A DNA stretch of 64,000 bases from Fibrobacter sp. UWB2. GTDB taxonomy: Bacteria; Fibrobacterota; Fibrobacteria; Fibrobacterales; Fibrobacteraceae. Below are positions 12,809 through 20,554 of this stretch, piece after piece; within the stretch, counting starts at the first letter, position 1; each line of letters starts with the position of its first letter. The DNA is taken from the NCBI RefSeq assembly GCF_002210425.1, contig NZ_MWQK01000004.1, positions 248,001-312,000 of the forward strand, given 5' to 3'. Below the pieces are notes generated by a model. That model was not told where the DNA came from. It searched no databases and saw only the letters and a program-made list of their open reading frames with translations. A program made the position numbers and the translations under genes.

Positions 12809-14398
12809 TCAATTAGCGCAATTTTCATCGTCCCCGTCCAACTGATACGGTTCACCAGGAACGAAGGTAAAAGACGGAGGCAAGGACATCGAGAAATCAG
12901 AGATTTCAGTTTGGCGGTTTGCCACAAAGAAATGCAAATGATGAGTGGATCCATCCGCCCAGCCCGTATCATCGGCAGCCCCTCGGCAATTCGAATACAT
13001 GGCCAAAGGCTCCCCAGCATGGCAACCATGATTATTCTGGGCAAGCGTCTGTAATTTTACGCTACCCGGAGCAGGCAAGTGCGTACCGCCCAAATCAATC
13101 ACCAGAACGCCATCGACAAACACCCACAAGTCACCACTACTAATAAACTTTAACTCTTCAGGTTCCGGCAACTGGTTTGAGGACTTGTACTGGAAAGCCG
13201 TGTACCCCACCATGGTAAAGCCATAATTGCGCAAGTGTTGCAAACCGAGAGCTCCATTCATTATAGTAGCCTGCAAAGCGGCACTATGTCCGGAACCTTC
13301 AGAATTTACAGCACGCGGACCACCCGCATTAAGCCAATCTGCACAAAGCTTAGCGGTACTCTGACCGTACAAATCCTGCTGAGTCGAAGCATACTGATAC
13401 CTGTAAGGCGGGCAGAATATAGAGAGCGACTGAGGTTCAAAAATATCACAAAAACCCTTCGGCTGGATAGTTTCAAGACAAGATTTTGCACTCACCCATT
13501 CTCGATTTACCGGGTTCACGCTATCAAGCGGGAAGAACCCGCCATTGTTGGAATTATAATCATAAACAAAGTAATTATTTTCTTCCGTAGACTTCGGAAG
13601 CTCAAAGACCATATTGACACGCTTATTCACAGAAGGAACATCGGCAAACCACTGGTCCAAGTTTTTATTGTCGCAACGTTCATTCAGCTTTTTAATGGCA
13701 ACGCCTTCATACATATCGGGAGTTCCATTGTCATTCACCTTAAACTGCAAATAAGGATCCACCATCCCCGGTGTATAAACAACCGGATTTGCCCAGTTAT
13801 TTTTTCCGCCAGGGCACTTTGTACCATTCACGTTTTCAAGAGCATTTTTGTAGCCGCGAAAATGCTTAAGCCCAGATAATGCAGTCACAGTCTCAGCACA
13901 TTCCCCATATTCTAGGACCGGGCCTGCAGAAACCTGTTGCAAATACGGTGGCAAAGCAGGATTCACCTGCATAGGCACCCCATCAACGCCAATTTGAGCC
14001 CCCACGCCCGCACTTTCGAAAGAGTACATATTGCCGCACGTGTTGTGGTAAGCCGCAGCCGCATACCATTCTTCATCAAAGCCAAAAGCTTTCATGGTAG
14101 CACCAGTCTGGGTCACATAGTTATAGATATCCTCCATATGCTCAACCGATTCTTCCGAGAAGTTTTCGAAATCTGAATGATTCTGCTGAAAATCGCGTAT
14201 AACGACATCTAAATTAAGCAAAGAAGCATCAACGACAGCCTCTTCTTTTGTGAGAGCATTGGCCCCATCCGTAGGACAAGTCGTTTTTTGCTGAGGTCCA
14301 TTAACGAAACCTTCTGGCGCAGGATCATCTTCTGCACAAGCGGCCAAAAGCACCATCATTGGCACAATTAAAGCCAAATTTCTTTTATTTCTATTCAT
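12809..14398 (-). CDS. Fibro-slime domain lipoprotein
   Basis: This 529-residue protein starts with a type II signal peptide (MNRNKRNLALIVPMMVLLAAC; lipobox LAAC, Cys21), so it should be lipid-anchored in the envelope. AAGGAGG lies before the ATG. The C-terminal 130 residues carry the fibro-slime signature (TIGR02148): an aromatic FTMVGYTAFQYK strand, then SSGDLWVFVDGVLVIDLGGT and a Cys-containing WADGSTHHLHFFVANRQTE block. The long region before it is Cys-rich and not recognised. Fibro-slime domains are related to slime-mould and surface adhesion proteins and are found on Fibrobacter surface proteins. A role in attachment is an inference. Confidence 0.85.
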   Translation of the reverse strand: MNRNKRNLALIVPMMVLLAACAEDDPAPEGFVNGPQQKTTCPTDGANALTKEEAVVDASLLNLDVVIRDFQQNHSDFENFSEESVEHMEDIYNYVTQTGATMKAFGFDEEWYAAAAYHNTCGNMYSFESAGVGAQIGVDGVPMQVNPALPPYLQQVSAGPVLEYGECAETVTALSGLKHFRGYKNALENVNGTKCPGGKNNWANPVVYTPGMVDPYLQFKVNDNGTPDMYEGVAIKKLNERCDNKNLDQWFADVPSVNKRVNMVFELPKSTEENNYFVYDYNSNNGGFFPLDSVNPVNREWVSAKSCLETIQPKGFCDIFEPQSLSIFCPPYRYQYASTQQDLYGQSTAKLCADWLNAGGPRAVNSEGSGHSAALQATIMNGALGLQHLRNYGFTMVGYTAFQYKSSNQLPEPEELKFISSGDLWVFVDGVLVIDLGGTHLPAPGSVKLQTLAQNNHGCHAGEPLAMYSNCRGAADDTGWADGSTHHLHFFVANRQTEISDFSMSLPPSFTFVPGEPYQLDGDDENCAN

Positions 14399-14767: not shown

Positions 14768-14866
14768 TTGTTGGTCAATAGTCGTTAGTCAGTAGTTGTT
14801 AGAAGACGCAGTTGTCCTAATTCTTCTCTAGTAACTAGTAACTTAGAACTAGTAACTAAAAAAAAC
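14766..14866. repeat. Degenerate ACTAA-type intergenic repeat
   Basis: The stretch is built of loosely repeated 7-9 base words such as GTTGGTCAATAGTCGTTAG, TAGTAACTAGTAACTTAG and AACTAGTAACTAA. Its reverse complement resembles the stretches at 22977-23046, 44039-44066 and 53424-53462. It fills the gap between two convergent genes. Confidence 0.5.
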
Positions 14867-15588
14867 TAATAATACACTTTCTGGGCTTCGAGCCAGCGTT
14901 CGTACAAGAACAACGCAATAAAGTTCTTTCCGTCGATAAACTGATGGGCCGCCTCTTCGTAAGGCAAGACTTCAGTGCGGATCCATTCGTTCTCGTCGGT
15001 GTAAGTTTGGTTCTTGCCATCCATCGCATTAAGCTCTTCGCGGGTCACGCTACGTTCAATTGCGTAAAGGCGGATGCGTTCGTCCAAAAGTCCGCAGCTT
15101 CCAGCAAAGCCGTCGCTTTTACCCTTGTACCAGAAATCCATCAAGTCAATAAGCTCAGAATCTTTTGCCTTGATTTGAGCTTCTTCTTCGAGTTCCGAGA
15201 GCGCCACCTTGCGGAAGTCGCCCGACCAGTCGAGAATCCCCGCCGGAATTTCGAGCGAAGCTGTTTCAGAAATGGCGAATCGCGGTTGGCGCACCAGGAG
15301 CAAGTATCGCTTGCCTTCGCAATGAAGCACGACGAGCACACCCACAGCATGGCCACGCACAAGCACAATCCCGTGCACAGGCTTTCCATCCGGCAAAAAA
15401 GCGGTCGCATTCAGCTTGATGAACAGCGGTTCATGGCGCTTGCTAAAGAAGTCGACTGAAGCAAAATGCACCTTCGTGATGTTGAACTTTTTCTCGGACG
15501 CTTCAAGCCACTGCTTGTAAATCTTACTATTGAGAATTATCGGCTTGTCTTCTTCTGCAATTTCGGCAGCAAAGGTATATTCAATCAT
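14866..15588 (-). CDS. Nudix hydrolase (possible sugar-nucleotide pyrophosphatase)
   Basis: This 240-residue protein has a Nudix box at roughly residues 116-138: GILDWSGDF, then KVALSELEEEAQIK. The metal-binding ELEEE core is kept, but the first Glu of the consensus is Gly and the Arg before the core is Ser. The upstream strand RYLLLVRQPRFA and the context resemble ADP-ribose/UDP-sugar pyrophosphatases of the NUDT5/NUDT14 type. Its ATG overlaps the stop of the lipoprotein gene before it (ATGA), so it is the last gene of a five-gene operon. The substrate cannot be read from sequence. Confidence 0.8.
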   Translation of the reverse strand: MIEYTFAAEIAEEDKPIILNSKIYKQWLEASEKKFNITKVHFASVDFFSKRHEPLFIKLNATAFLPDGKPVHGIVLVRGHAVGVLVVLHCEGKRYLLLVRQPRFAISETASLEIPAGILDWSGDFRKVALSELEEEAQIKAKDSELIDLMDFWYKGKSDGFAGSCGLLDERIRLYAIERSVTREELNAMDGKNQTYTDENEWIRTEVLPYEEAAHQFIDGKNFIALFLYERWLEAQKVYY

Positions 15589-16685
15589 TTTGACTCCGTC
15601 GAATCGACTTTAAGCGTATCGCGAGCGATCGTCGCCGATTTCCAGACTTTATACAAACTATCTACAGATATTCTATCTTCGGATTCAACCACAAGGCTAT
15701 CCGTCGAAAGGTTAATGGCGACCCAATCCTTCTTTGTCGCAGGGCCACAAGAGAGTTCGCTTTCATCGGGCACAAAAAGTTCACGCAAGAAAGCCATTTT
15801 TCCGCCATAATAAATTGACGAATGAGAAAATCCATTTACCATTGCGCACGAAGGAATTTTCTCAATATAATACGTACTCGTATGCCAAACGGTATCCAAT
15901 CGTTCCATCACCTTGCCAAGCGCGGTCGAATCGTATTCCCACTTGGAATTAAGGCAATAAGTAGAATCTTCAGATGCACAAGCATAACGCACAGGAACAA
16001 GGGCGGTATCGCTAGTCTTCCAGGACGTCGGATAAACGGTATCGGCAACAACGTCATTGCACATGTCCACGCGCATCGTGCAGTTTGCACGCAATGTTCT
16101 CCAATAGAACTTCTGCGGAGTCAGCGAATCAAGCATGCGCAAAATCGACGGGGATTCTTTTGTCCGTAGCGGAAGCGATTCCGGTTCTGCAAAAGCGGAA
16201 TCCACAAAAATGCGGAACGTATCAAGTTCCAGCTTTCCACGGCGAAGCATAATGGAATCCAGCAAAGAATCTGCATCGTTCTTTACGACAATCTTCGTAA
16301 TTTTCGAAGAGAGCTCATTCGTCATGCGCTTGAATGTCGTATCCGGGCGATACATCGGAGACGAGCAATCGTCCGTATTCACCTTGAAGTTCACCTCCGG
16401 CGCAAAGACAAGCACGGAATCCTCAAAGGAGTAATTCAGGTCAATGGAAGTCAACGAGCAATTCGAAAACGACCAGATATTGGAAAGCGTAATATAGAGC
16501 GTATCCGAAACCAAGTGAATCGCTCTGCCCGAATCAAGCTTTGCTCCAAGAAAATAGCCCTTGCCTTCGACCAATTCTCCATTGGGCATCACCGGGAGCG
16601 GGCCATCGCCATCCTGAGCGCACGAAGAAAAAAGCGCCACTAGCGCAAGCAACCAATATACAGGGAACAACAAAGCACGCTTCAT
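15585..16685 (-). CDS. Lipoprotein of unknown function in the STAS/PorV operon
   Basis: This 366-residue protein starts MKRALLFPVYWLLALVALFS followed by SC, a type II signal peptide with lipidated Cys at about 22. The mature part is Asp/Ser/Thr-rich with several Cys pairs (NCTMRVDMC, ACASEDSTYC) that suggest disulphides outside the cytoplasm. The C-terminal third includes IPSCAMVNGFSHSSIYYGGK. I recognise no domain. It follows the bitopic protein by 10 bases and overlaps the Nudix gene by four bases. Confidence 0.8.
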   Translation of the reverse strand: MKRALLFPVYWLLALVALFSSCAQDGDGPLPVMPNGELVEGKGYFLGAKLDSGRAIHLVSDTLYITLSNIWSFSNCSLTSIDLNYSFEDSVLVFAPEVNFKVNTDDCSSPMYRPDTTFKRMTNELSSKITKIVVKNDADSLLDSIMLRRGKLELDTFRIFVDSAFAEPESLPLRTKESPSILRMLDSLTPQKFYWRTLRANCTMRVDMCNDVVADTVYPTSWKTSDTALVPVRYACASEDSTYCLNSKWEYDSTALGKVMERLDTVWHTSTYYIEKIPSCAMVNGFSHSSIYYGGKMAFLRELFVPDESELSCGPATKKDWVAINLSTDSLVVESEDRISVDSLYKVWKSATIARDTLKVDSTESK

Positions 16686-16695
16686 ATAAATTTAC

Positions 16696-17610
16696 TCAAA
16701 ATGGCAGATTCTTTTTAAAAATTGCAATTTGCGCAGAGTCCACCGGATGCGTCGCCTTGTAGAAATCTTTCCAACGAACGAACAAGCCATTCTGGCGAAC
16801 GGTCAAAAAGAACGAAGAACTGTCCTGCGGAGAGAGGCGCCCCACCGCATCCTTAAAATCAAGCGTCTTGCCGACAACAGGAGCCATCTTCCACGACCCA
16901 ATGCCAAACATGCGCGAGGTAATTCCGTTTCCGTGATTGAGTTCTACGAACATGCCAAGCGAATCCTTCCCCGCTTCAAGCACAACGCCCGGAAGCACAG
17001 GGTAAATCGGAGCTTCGCCAAGTCCCTTGAATAAATCAGCCGAGAGCAACTGTTCCAAGCCTTCGAAGTCAAAGTTGTCTACAATCGCAAGGGCAGACCA
17101 TCCAAGCGGCACGTGCGGACACGGCCCCGGGAAAAGGCAGCCCGTCTTGCTCGAAATCCAGACCTTCGAAGAATCCTCACGCATCATGTGCAAAAAGACA
17201 TTCCGTGTAGAATCTTCAAGCACAACCAAAAGCGCATCCCCAAAATCTTTCTTGGATGCCACCCAGTGAATCTTGGCGCCATCGCTTGCCAAATTTTTCA
17301 CATAGCGCAAGAACGTATTCGGAAGCATCAGGGAATCTGTCACAATCCAAGAACACTGCGCATAATCATTCTTGAGCTCAAACGGCGTACCGTCATACGA
17401 CGTACAGCCCGCAATCCAGTCTTCGACAGCCGGAGGAGCAGGTTCTTCGTTCCCAGGAAGCGGAAGCATATCCACAAGCTTGTGGAACCAGCCATTCGTA
17501 TAGGCGACGACAATCAAGGTAAAGACTATGATAATCCTTATCAGCGGGAATTTTCGGCTTTCCCGCATTCTTCTTCTTTTTCCTTGATACTCAGAAAACT
17601 CTACAGCCAT
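16696..17610 (-). CDS. Bitopic membrane protein of unknown function
   Basis: This 304-residue protein has a basic N-terminus (GKRRRMRESRKFPLIR), one membrane segment (about 24-42, IIIVFTLIVVAYTNGWF) and a large, probably periplasmic domain. Cysteines occur in IAGCTSYDG, YAQCSWIV and GCLFPGPCPHVPLGW. No known domain is evident. It starts three bases after the stop of the STAS gene, so the two are likely co-translated. Confidence 0.78.
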   Translation of the reverse strand: MAVEFSEYQGKRRRMRESRKFPLIRIIIVFTLIVVAYTNGWFHKLVDMLPLPGNEEPAPPAVEDWIAGCTSYDGTPFELKNDYAQCSWIVTDSLMLPNTFLRYVKNLASDGAKIHWVASKKDFGDALLVVLEDSTRNVFLHMMREDSSKVWISSKTGCLFPGPCPHVPLGWSALAIVDNFDFEGLEQLLSADLFKGLGEAPIYPVLPGVVLEAGKDSLGMFVELNHGNGITSRMFGIGSWKMAPVVGKTLDFKDAVGRLSPQDSSSFFLTVRQNGLFVRWKDFYKATHPVDSAQIAIFKKNLPF

Positions 17611-17613
17611 CGG

Positions 17614-18255
17614 TTACAGGATTAAATAAGAGACAACAGCAATTACAATCAGCAAAAGTACAATCACAGCGACAAGGGAACCCTTCGAAGACGGAGTCTC
17701 GTCCACAAGCGGATTCTTGTCCAGGATTTTCGGCTCCACGACAGGAGCAGCCGGAGTAACAGGAGCAGTCGGAGACTCTTGCGTGGCAGGAACTTCTTGC
17801 ACGGCAGGCGTTTCCTGTGAAGCAGCTTCTGCAGGTTTCTCGACTTCAGCCGGTTTAGCCGGTTCTTCGGCAACAGACTTTTCGGCCTGTTCGAGGGCGC
17901 TCGCCTGCTGTTCAACCGGCAGGAATGATGCCATTTCGTCAGCGCTCACGAAAATGCGGATAAAGCGCTCGAGCCCGACCTTTCTCAAGCTCCTCGCCAG
18001 CGATTCGCGGTCGGCAAGAACTGCAAACGTTCCGTTGCGCTTAGAAAGTTCCTGATGGAACTGCATAAAGGCATTGTACGCATCGCTGTAAACAAAATCA
18101 ATGCCCGTCAAGTCCACGCCGATAAACTTGGCATCAGCATTAGCTGCAAGAACATCGCGGAAACTAGCCTTAAACGTTTCGGCATCAAAAGCACCAATCG
18201 GATTGAGCGGCGCCGGAAGCAAAAGGAATAAACCCACACTTTTTGAATCAGCCAT
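17614..18255 (-). CDS. Tail-anchored STAS-domain protein
   Basis: Residues 1-105 read as a STAS domain (anti-sigma-factor antagonist fold): a KSVGLFLLLPAPLNPIGAFD strand, AKFIGVDLTGIDFVYSDAYN with the typical strand-turn-helix (Ser at the usual phospho-site region), and LRKVGLERFIRIF near the end. A Pro/Ala/Glu/Thr-rich linker (about 115-185) follows. A single C-terminal membrane segment (SLVAVIVLLLIVIAVVSYLI) ends the protein. This predicts a cytosolic STAS domain tethered by a C-terminal tail. STAS domains usually bind partner kinases or phosphatases; none is encoded nearby. Second gene of the operon. Confidence 0.78.
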   Translation of the reverse strand: MADSKSVGLFLLLPAPLNPIGAFDAETFKASFRDVLAANADAKFIGVDLTGIDFVYSDAYNAFMQFHQELSKRNGTFAVLADRESLARSLRKVGLERFIRIFVSADEMASFLPVEQQASALEQAEKSVAEEPAKPAEVEKPAEAASQETPAVQEVPATQESPTAPVTPAAPVVEPKILDKNPLVDETPSSKGSLVAVIVLLLIVIAVVSYLIL

Positions 18256-18266
18256 CTTAGAATCCC

Positions 18267-19607
18267 CTATTCCAAAATTTCATCATCAGTTTCAACAATC
18301 GGAGTCGGTTGTGTAGGAGCTACAGCAGGAGCAGCAGGCACCACAGGCTTAGCATCTTCTGCCGGAGCCGCAGTAGCAGGCGCCGTTTGAGTCGTCGGCG
18401 TTACCGGTGCGGCAGGAGCCGAAGGCACTGGCGAGCTTTCCGGGACCTCATTCACCGTAGGTGCGGCCGGCACAGGCGTTTCCTGTATGCTTTCTTCTAC
18501 AAAATCTTCGACCGGCAAATCTTCCGGTTCCTCAGTCACCAACTTCTTTGTAGTTGCAGTCTTGTTCGTGTGCCCAGATTCCTTCGGCTTGTGTCCAAAG
18601 AGATACGGGCTAAAGTTCACGCTCACGCGATGCACCGGCGAGAACACCGGATGAGATTCAAAGGCGTAATCCACTTCAAGGAAGTTTGCAATCGTAAGAC
18701 CGGCACCCGCCGTCACGCTCTTGAACGTGGTAAAGCTGCTTAAACCAACGCGCAACTTGAGGCCAAAGTCAAATGCAAATTCCACACCGCCATGACCGCC
18801 AGACAGCCAGTCCAGAGGATTTTCCCAAATGCGTTTGCCGTTAGTATCGGTTTCAAAATCCAAATCTCTAGCTTCACGATGGAAAAGCCCTGCACTCTGC
18901 CAATAGAAATTGAACTTGCCGTACAGGTAGTTCACAGGCAAGCCATAGCTCAAGGCCAAATAAAATTCCGGTGAAGAATATTCAAACTCGCCCGATTCCC
19001 AGGAGGTGGCCGACGAGGTCCAGCCCTTCAAGAGACCGGATACATAAAAATCGTCCTTGATCTGGTAACGAGCGCTAGCATCGCCACGGAAACCCCAGCC
19101 ACTCTGGTCCATATCACGATACAACACATGGAACGCAAGGCCCAAGTCCAAGCGGTCTATAATGCGGCGTCCCCAAGCGACAGAGAAAACCCAGTCTGCA
19201 ATCGAAAGCGTGTTGTAATCCGTACCTTCCGGCAGCGGGTCGCCTTCACGGATGTACGGGATGTCGTCTGCACCAAACCTGGAGAACGAAACGCCTAAGC
19301 CCTGATGACCCGGGAGCGGAATCACCATCGATGCATAATCGTACTTGGTATCTTCGTAATAAGCCGTATGCGAGAACGAAGCCCACATGTATTTGGCCTG
19401 AGAAAGCTGGTATGCATTGGTGCCTAGCCCAAGATAATCACCTTCGACCGCCAAAGTTGCAGAACCCAAGGCCGCAGAACGCGCACCCGGTTCAATATCA
19501 AGAGTAGCATTCGCACCCACAACGCGGTCGGCCGCAAAAGAAGTCGACACAAGCGCACAGGCAAGGAAACAAGTCCTGAGAGATATAAATTTTTTCAAAA
19601 AAGACAT
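18267..19607 (-). CDS. PorV/PorQ-like outer-membrane beta-barrel protein
   Basis: This 446-residue protein has a cleavable signal peptide (residues 1-25, ending TSFAA). The barrel (about 26-350) opens with GANATLDIEPGARSAALGSA and GTNAYQLSQAKYMWASFSHT, the characteristic N-terminal repeat of PorV/PorQ-type proteins, followed by alternating strands ending VHRVSVNFSPYLFG. The last 95 residues are a Pro/Ala/Thr/Glu-rich tail similar in composition to the linker of the next gene. PorV serves the type IX secretion system in Bacteroidota; whether this relative does is not known. It is the first gene of the five-gene operon and lies back to back with the Xer gene, 50 bases apart. Confidence 0.75.
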   Translation of the reverse strand: MSFLKKFISLRTCFLACALVSTSFAADRVVGANATLDIEPGARSAALGSATLAVEGDYLGLGTNAYQLSQAKYMWASFSHTAYYEDTKYDYASMVIPLPGHQGLGVSFSRFGADDIPYIREGDPLPEGTDYNTLSIADWVFSVAWGRRIIDRLDLGLAFHVLYRDMDQSGWGFRGDASARYQIKDDFYVSGLLKGWTSSATSWESGEFEYSSPEFYLALSYGLPVNYLYGKFNFYWQSAGLFHREARDLDFETDTNGKRIWENPLDWLSGGHGGVEFAFDFGLKLRVGLSSFTTFKSVTAGAGLTIANFLEVDYAFESHPVFSPVHRVSVNFSPYLFGHKPKESGHTNKTATTKKLVTEEPEDLPVEDFVEESIQETPVPAAPTVNEVPESSPVPSAPAAPVTPTTQTAPATAAPAEDAKPVVPAAPAVAPTQPTPIVETDDEILE

Positions 19608-19657: not shown

Positions 19658-20554
19658 ATGCTTTTAGACGAATACATCCAAAATTTCCTGATATACTTGC
19701 AAACCCAGCGCAGGTATTCCGAAAGAACGGTCATTACGTACCGAAAATCGCTCGAAAAATACCTCGCCACGCTCGACGGGAATGCACCACTCGAAGCATT
19801 TTCCGAAATGAACGTCAAGGCCTTCGTGTGGGATTTGAAAATCAAGCAAAAACTTGCGCCTACAAGCATCTGCGAGCACCTCGCCGCTCTGAAAAGTTTT
19901 GGCAAGTACCTCGTCCGTTCCAAGATTTTGCAAAAGAATCCCGCCGAAGCGGTCCCCATGCCCAAGCGCCCCAAGCGCCTCGTCGCATTCCTCGGTCAAA
20001 AGGACCTCGCCGAAGAGAAATTCCCTGAATTGCCCGAGAATCCGACGCTCCCGCAAGTCCGCGCACGTCTTTTGCTCGAACTCATTTACGGTTCGGGACT
20101 TCGAATTTCGGAATGCCAGAGTCTCTGCTGGAATCAATTACAGACAAAAGAAAGACTAGTCCGAGTGATTGGTAAGGGCAACAAGGAACGCATCGTCCCG
20201 ATTACAGACACGCTAATATCTTGGCTCGAAAAATTCAGGGCCGTTGAAATTGAAGCAGGGCACACGCCAACAATTACAAGCTACGTGTTCTTGAGCGAAA
20301 ACGGAAAGCCCTATGACATCCGCACTCTCCGGAACGACATTCACAACTTGTTGCGAGATATCGGCTGGGAAGGGAAAGCGAGCCCGCACGTGCTGCGCCA
20401 CAGCTTTGCCACGCACCTGCTAGAGAACGGTGCCGAAATCATGAGTGTCAAGGAAATGCTCGGACATTCGAACATTTCCACCACGCAAATCTACACGCAC
20501 GTGAATGCCGAACGCCTCAAGCAGGCCTTCAAGAAAACGCACCCGCGCGCTTAG
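19658..20554 (+). CDS. Tyrosine recombinase, XerC/XerD family
   Basis: This 298-residue protein has an N-terminal SAM-like DNA-binding domain (YIQNFLIYLQTQRRYSERTV) and a complete catalytic domain. The catalytic set is Arg in GSGLRISE (about 147), Lys in GKGNKER (about 171), HxxR in HVLRHSFATHLLENGA, His in GHSNIS and the nucleophile Tyr in TTQIYTHV near the end. The C-terminus HPRA matches chromosome dimer-resolution recombinases more than phage integrases, and no att site or mobile cargo is near. Likely acts at dif in the terminus region; C versus D cannot be settled here. Confidence 0.88.
   Translation: MLLDEYIQNFLIYLQTQRRYSERTVITYRKSLEKYLATLDGNAPLEAFSEMNVKAFVWDLKIKQKLAPTSICEHLAALKSFGKYLVRSKILQKNPAEAVPMPKRPKRLVAFLGQKDLAEEKFPELPENPTLPQVRARLLLELIYGSGLRISECQSLCWNQLQTKERLVRVIGKGNKERIVPITDTLISWLEKFRAVEIEAGHTPTITSYVFLSENGKPYDIRTLRNDIHNLLRDIGWEGKASPHVLRHSFATHLLENGAEIMSVKEMLGHSNISTTQIYTHVNAERLKQAFKKTHPRA

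Follow-up and report, generated by a model that had tools for sequence, protein, structure and literature searches.

A conserved Fibrobacter operon joining a tail-anchored STAS protein, a degenerate LytM protein, a PorV-like barrel, and a lipoprotein: a candidate trans-envelope control module

The window analyzed here is a stretch of 64,000 nucleotides from Fibrobacter sp. UWB2 (contig NZ_MWQK01000004.1, positions 248,001 to 312,000). Its minus strand carries a compact operon encoding a PorV-like outer-membrane barrel, a STAS protein anchored by its C-terminus, a single-pass inner-membrane protein, a lipoprotein, and a Nudix hydrolase. The third protein contains a degenerate LytM domain, and a core of four genes stays together well beyond the genus. 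Current evidence tentatively favors, at somewhat less than even confidence, a trans-envelope control module in which a cytoplasmic STAS input would be linked to cell-wall remodeling, with the outer membrane tied in.

The open reading frames occupy 18267-19607, 17614-18255, 16696-17610, 15585-16685, and 14866-15588, with gaps of 11, 3, 10, and -4 bases, exactly as listed in an earlier note on this DNA. The barrel is present in 36 of 37 genus genomes, the window's own included, and the single exception is an assembly that is 82% complete. All five genes stand in order in every complete genus locus (34/34), and a second set, overlapping the first, gave 46/46. The five-gene order in the genus is therefore far beyond chance. 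Five other genera of Fibrobacteraceae retain it too, and a breakdown of order within Fibrobacter, which would have told against joint function, was not seen in either set. Median gaps in the genus, from barrel to Nudix, are 72, 4, 13, and 1 bases; the stretch from the STAS gene to the Nudix gene forms the tight part of the operon, and the barrel gene sometimes lies up to 633 bases off. Consensus promoter and terminator scans returned counts near shuffled numbers and were not used.

Outside the genus, the order barrel, STAS protein, LytM protein, lipoprotein is kept in other genera of the family (L184, L188-L192, L194-L198, and L202) and in nine loci of the class (L036-L044; families f2, f3, and f5). 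In those nine loci, no Nudix gene was recognised. The barrel, the LytM protein, and the lipoprotein occur together in four class families (f1, f2, f3, and f5). The scan for barrels used the genus alignment; the class-wide barrel alignment was too diverse for a scan of the collection.

The central component is the product of gene three (16696-17610, minus strand; 304 aa), previously described simply as a bitopic protein. The single membrane pass holds: a short basic cytoplasmic tail precedes an N-terminal transmembrane helix at residues 22-40 (17491-17547, minus strand). What that description missed is a periplasmic LytM (M23) domain at residues 162-290 (16741-17127, minus strand), which matches the fold and lacks the zinc-binding HxxxD and HxH motifs. 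An AlphaFold2 model (mean pLDDT 78.8) comprises the N-terminal helix, a beta-rich domain, and the LytM domain. VIA-align matched the latter to the Vibrio EnvC complex (Z 14.8), DipM (14.6), Escherichia coli EnvC (14.4), and SpoIIQ (14.1); matches at Z 14-15, StM23 also among them, span about 117-127 residues. The best M23 protein in a Foldseek search reached E 4e-8. The Pfam M23 score of the window's protein, 20.9 bits, falls under the cut-off of 28.7. The f5 ortholog in L036 exceeds that cut-off with 41.3 bits, and 39 of 42 genus members matched M23 independently. Genus and class profiles of the protein align with an hhalign probability of 98.7 (E 2.8e-16). Both zinc motifs are absent from every genus and class member aligned; three M23 domains of active type encoded by the same genome have them. 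Judged by its model, gene three encodes an inner-membrane-anchored protein with a dead LytM domain. No LysM domain was found in it, and FtsEX is not beside its gene. The cytoplasmic tail was considered as a docking site for the STAS protein and rejected, as the presence of its motif does not go along with that of STAS.

The putative input component is the STAS protein (17614-18255, minus strand; 213 aa), recognized by profile match and hydropathy. Its STAS domain (residues 20-107; 17935-18198, minus strand) scores 32.1 bits against PF01740, above the cut-off of 22.6, which bears out the identity first proposed from the letters alone. It is one of five STAS stretches in the window's own 3.5 Mb Fibrobacter-type genome, the scope of all genome-wide scans reported here. 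The NCBIfam model ant_ant_sig was missed, at 28.3 bits against a cut-off of 53.45. A YSDAYN motif at residues 56-61 (18073-18090, minus strand) is of particular interest. In a weak PDB alignment, the serine of YSDA falls on the serine of MDSAG in the anti-sigma factor antagonist TM1442. By this alignment, the YSD serine occupies the phospho-serine position of SpoIIAA-type STAS domains. A count by eye had pointed to loss of the phospho-serine; the same alignment, placing conserved serine on serine, ruled this out. The YSD serine is invariant in the genus, and YSD[A/T/S] recurs, with few exceptions, in the module STAS proteins examined throughout the phylum. Elsewhere in the genome, two STAS proteins carry SSAG in place of a YSD-type motif. 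No cognate kinase for the STAS domain was found among the operon genes.

The membrane anchor of the STAS protein (17617-17679, minus strand; hydropathy 3.35 over 19 residues) is its sole strong hydrophobic segment and sits at the extreme C-terminus, with no residue after it, so the term tail-anchored is apt. Genus members leave 0-3 residues beyond the anchor. A multi-pass domain of the SulP/SLC26 type is absent from this protein of 213 aa with its single hydrophobic segment. The linker before the anchor had been taken as characteristically rich in proline, alanine, and glutamate. This is true of the Fibrobacter succinogenes clade, to which the window belongs and in which proline, alanine, threonine, and glutamate (P/A/T/E) make up 32-63% of the linker, but not of 36 of the 48 Fibrobacter loci, which have a TKSFN-type linker with 28-46% P/A/T/E.

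Toward the outer membrane, the operon contributes the barrel (18267-19607, minus strand; 446 aa). Its designation as PorV-like is upheld by a match to NF033709 (E 1.5e-20), though 74.1 bits remain below the curated cut-off of 90. A signal peptide (residues ~1-25) is followed by the barrel, to residue ~336, and by a long P/A/T/E-rich C-terminal tail of disordered type (residues ~337-446; 18270-18599, minus strand). PorV-like barrels have a FadL-type fold. By analogy with FadL/PorV topology, the tail is predicted to be periplasmic. Its length varies within the genus, from 50 to 122 aa past the barrel, and its tip does not vary freely. The window's barrel ends in VETDDEILE (18270-18296, minus strand). 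Among 48 genus barrels, 20 end in DE[IV]LE and 26 in a GGxxWEE-type motif (G..WEE), against an expectation of 0.02 for shuffled tails; the remaining two end in WEED. Several barrels carry both motifs in tandem. Barrels of other Fibrobacteraceae genera end in WEE (GGxxWEE) or near variants, and a KEIL[DE]-like acidic tip occurs in much of the class. A conserved tip on a flexible arm of variable length suggests that the tip serves as a docking peptide.

The earlier note had also linked the barrel and the STAS protein through a shared Pro/Ala/Thr/Glu tail. The likeness exists in the F. succinogenes clade and not elsewhere, and it is recent, since the STAS linker is P/A/T/E-rich only there. Moreover, the STAS linker should lie in the cytoplasm and the barrel tail in the periplasm, with the inner membrane between them. 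With the composition confined to one clade and the compartments different, the shared tail was rejected as a link between the two proteins.

The fourth gene encodes a lipoprotein (15585-16685, minus strand) with lipobox LFSSC and Cys22. Genus members share eight invariant cysteines besides Cys22, and a fairly confident model (pLDDT 82.8) predicts two all-beta domains. No known family was matched, and the fold search yielded nothing convincing (best Foldseek E 0.09; a NigD-like match at Z 5.9 over 95 residues). Kinship of class and genus lipoproteins has moderate support (probability 72, E 3e-5). The Nudix hydrolase (14866-15588, minus strand; PF00293 35.6 bits, cut-off 21.1) overlaps the lipoprotein gene by 4 bases. 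It is conserved beside the module within the family and was not found there elsewhere in the class; in other genera of the family it is adjacent in some loci and about 1 kb away in L195, L197, L198, and L202. The Nudix hydrolase is a looser, family-level member and probably a passenger. In most of 45 loci, the Nudix box has the variant form PAGILDW[ST]GD..KVALSELEEEAQ, which departs from the consensus GxxxxxE at the first Glu.

Across the class, the layout reads barrel, STAS protein with transmembrane segment (TM) and PEGA domains, TM-dead-LytM protein, and lipoprotein, the STAS slot being variable. In f3 (genus g5) and f5, the STAS protein extends more than 300 residues beyond the membrane segment, and the two proteins scanned carry two and three PEGA domains there. 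The STAS proteins of f1 and f2 have just 0-12 residues after it. Because the f3 (g5) and f5 proteins carry PEGA beyond the membrane segment, the ancestral STAS protein probably spanned the membrane, and the Fibrobacter form would have lost the periplasmic PEGA part. At four g3 loci, the middle slot holds a PEGA protein with a signal peptide (L045 and L047) or is empty (L046 and L048). Genus g17 has a gene for a soluble protein with two STAS domains, immediately followed by the TM-dead-LytM gene, and no barrel gene adjoins this pair. Two sets therefore persist: STAS with dead LytM in g17, and barrel, LytM protein, and lipoprotein in g3.

Some neighbors of these variants were identified by eye. 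Upstream of the two-STAS protein of g17 lies a large DUF342/FapA-like gene, which forms a row with the two-STAS and TM-dead-LytM genes (L185:4462-7580 and L186:6705-9776), and L186 has a FliF-like gene at one end. In g5, the gene of a small zinc-ribbon protein separates the barrel and STAS genes and runs on the other strand (L037:8808-9284 and L038:8542-9231); the small protein of L038 gives a weak STAS-like match, and so does the corresponding position in L039, L043, and L044.

EnvC and NlpD activate amidases through their dead LytM domains; EnvC is associated with the inner membrane, and NlpD is an outer-membrane lipoprotein (PMC5533458). The proposal of trans-envelope control follows from this precedent and from the presence of candidate partners in the genome, namely one Amidase_3 protein (C1:764754), several M23 enzymes, five SpoIIE-type phosphatases, and one clear RsbW-type kinase, the stronger of two HATPase_c_2 matches. 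The parts and their conservation are taken from sequence and models; we infer the contacts, the direction of signaling, and the hydrolase target. The membrane-tethered STAS domain would receive a cytoplasmic input, through serine phosphorylation or docking of a soluble partner, and would pass it to the LytM protein or its local assembly. In the manner of EnvC, NlpD, and DipM, the dead LytM domain may then regulate a wall hydrolase, either an amidase or an M23 peptidase; alternatively, it may bind the wall. The barrel tail would cross the periplasm, its tip docking on an inner-membrane or wall partner, and the lipoprotein may act on the outer-membrane side; wall remodeling would thereby be tied to the outer membrane. 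The PEGA domains of the f3 (g5) and f5 STAS proteins would add a direct trans-membrane arm. The earlier suggestion of one envelope-spanning assembly with a signaling input is fair in that the predicted locations of the components extend from the cytoplasm to the outer membrane, even without the shared-tail link. A more specific version, a phylum-specific partner switch in which STAS phosphorylation switches wall hydrolysis through dead LytM in step with the docking tip of the barrel, is unlikely as a whole. The searches, which spanned part of the literature, returned no description of LytM-mediated action of a STAS domain on the cell wall and nothing relevant on STAS with PEGA or STAS in Fibrobacter.

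Several observations weigh against trans-envelope control. The STAS protein is not essential to the module, because the g3 middle slot holds a PEGA-only protein or nothing. The f2 barrels are without a tail. Among more distant families, the STAS-TM-PEGA genes are not located beside the barrel. Genomes without STAS keep the motif in the cytoplasmic tail of their LytM protein, and g17 lacks it. Finally, of the two HATPase_c_2 matches, the strong, clearly RsbW-type kinase (66.6 bits, at C4:9550) adjoins its own, different STAS gene. As separate observations, the STAS-TM or STAS-TM-PEGA genes away from the barrel are those of L098, L099, L100, and L101 in other families, and that of L098 neighbors a gene resembling glutamate racemase by eye.

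The main rival is a static tether, in which barrel tail, lipoprotein, and LytM domain hold the envelope layers together and the STAS protein, unphosphorylated, serves as a scaffold for assembly or placement. A dead LytM fold and a long barrel tail with a conserved tip would suit such a role, and the change of the switch-type D-S-x-G context to Y-S-D-x agrees with a STAS domain that is not phosphorylated. The g3 genomes that lost STAS while keeping barrel, LytM protein, and lipoprotein intact point the same way. However, the serine is invariant in the genus, for which a pure scaffold has no obvious need, and f2 retains the module without the barrel tail. On balance, we regard the static tether as doubtful. 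That the genes merely share a promoter as envelope genes, without forming one machine, is quite improbable: the clearly looser Nudix gene and the variable middle slot agree with it, but the joint retention of barrel, LytM protein, and lipoprotein across f1, f2, f3, and f5 does not, nor does the pairing of STAS and dead LytM even with no barrel adjacent.

The PorV likeness had also hinted at the type IX secretion system (T9SS), with the barrel as a PorV2-like shuttle or anchor by SprA, placed by the other proteins. The family match at NF033709 and the match to the PorV2 model (E 1.1e-15) are consistent with an accessory role. So are the SprA/Sov translocon encoded in the same genome (contig C6; L172:3347-10684; TIGR04189, 1478 bits) and the T9SS use proposed for F. 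succinogenes (PMC6851124). Yet the barrel misses every T9SS equivalog cut-off by far: 18.6 bits against 250 for PorV (NF033710), 23.7 against 220 for PorQ (NF033711), and 57.4 against 325 for PorV2 (NF052325), on which membership was rejected. None of the operon genes that were scored was recognised as a T9SS gene. The genome holds nine PorV-family stretches, with better PorV and PorQ candidates at L164 and L166. Since these and SprA stand elsewhere, the barrel is, by sequence, a separate paralog, and the hint is weak. The T9SS is not known to include a LytM or STAS part. An accessory role is very improbable. Among the PorV-family proteins, the best PorV candidate (L164:501-2666; 721 aa) carries a long insertion that splits its profile match ~50 positions into the profile. 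Three further long proteins of 726-740 aa (L167:305-2485, L168:63-2255, and L169:106-2328) show partial PorV-family matches; L167, the one scanned, has TPR-type matches too, and L167 and L169 end in DLE.

A module for transport of lipids or other hydrophobic compounds may be imagined by analogy with FadL-type barrels, whose fold the PorV-like proteins share. MlaB, the STAS protein of an envelope transporter, offers a second analogy (PMC7367683). Against this, the operon has no ABC ATPase, permease, or MCE-type gene, and the LytM domain indicates the wall instead, which leaves transport a remote prospect.

On one flank of the operon, a divergent XerC/XerD-like tyrosine recombinase gene (19658-20554, plus strand; 275 bits to XerC, cut-off 335) lies 50 bases upstream of the barrel, and a divergent Xer-type neighbor upstream is also seen in the genus, in f2, and in most loci of other family genera. 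Downstream of the Nudix gene lies a Fibro-slime domain protein (12809-14398, minus strand; TIGR02148, 59 bits, cut-off 45), which tblastn located at this position in just two further genus loci, L056 and L058.

Fibrobacter ranks among the main cellulose degraders in the rumen, and its envelope is rearranged during growth on cellulose (PMC6851124). Descriptions of how the inner membrane, the wall, and the outer membrane are coordinated in Fibrobacterota are few, and the module provides a concrete, testable candidate. If trans-envelope control is true, STAS signaling would reach beyond transcription and transport into control of the wall, and dead-LytM regulation would be extended to a phylum distant from the model organisms.

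Each domain of the module is known, and their combination was not found in the searched part of the literature. Like EnvC, NlpD, and DipM, the module has an envelope-anchored LytM fold whose zinc ligands are lost; it differs in its single N-terminal transmembrane helix, its linkage to STAS, barrel, and lipoprotein, and a still putative activator role. Relative to the EnvC type, LytM is preceded in the model by a transmembrane helix and then a beta-rich domain. SpoIIQ of Bacillus sporulation is likewise single-pass with a dead LytM domain (Z 14.1), whereas the module lacks a SpoIIIAH partner and a sporulation context and belongs to a diderm envelope with barrel and lipoprotein. SpoIIAA and RsbV share a serine at the phosphorylated position, but the module STAS is membrane-anchored, reads YSDx in place of DSxG, and comes from an operon without kinase or sigma factor. 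MlaB of MlaFEDB is also a STAS protein of envelope maintenance with Ser/Thr at the regulatory position (PMC7367683); it is a minimal soluble domain on an ABC ATPase, which the module does not have. With PorV, PorQ, and PorV2, the barrel shares family membership by profile (E 1.5e-20), and it departs from them in scoring under all curated cut-offs and in its long tail with a conserved tip. We class the system as a variant of degenerate-LytM regulation in which a STAS domain would provide the input, rather than as a member of the T9SS.

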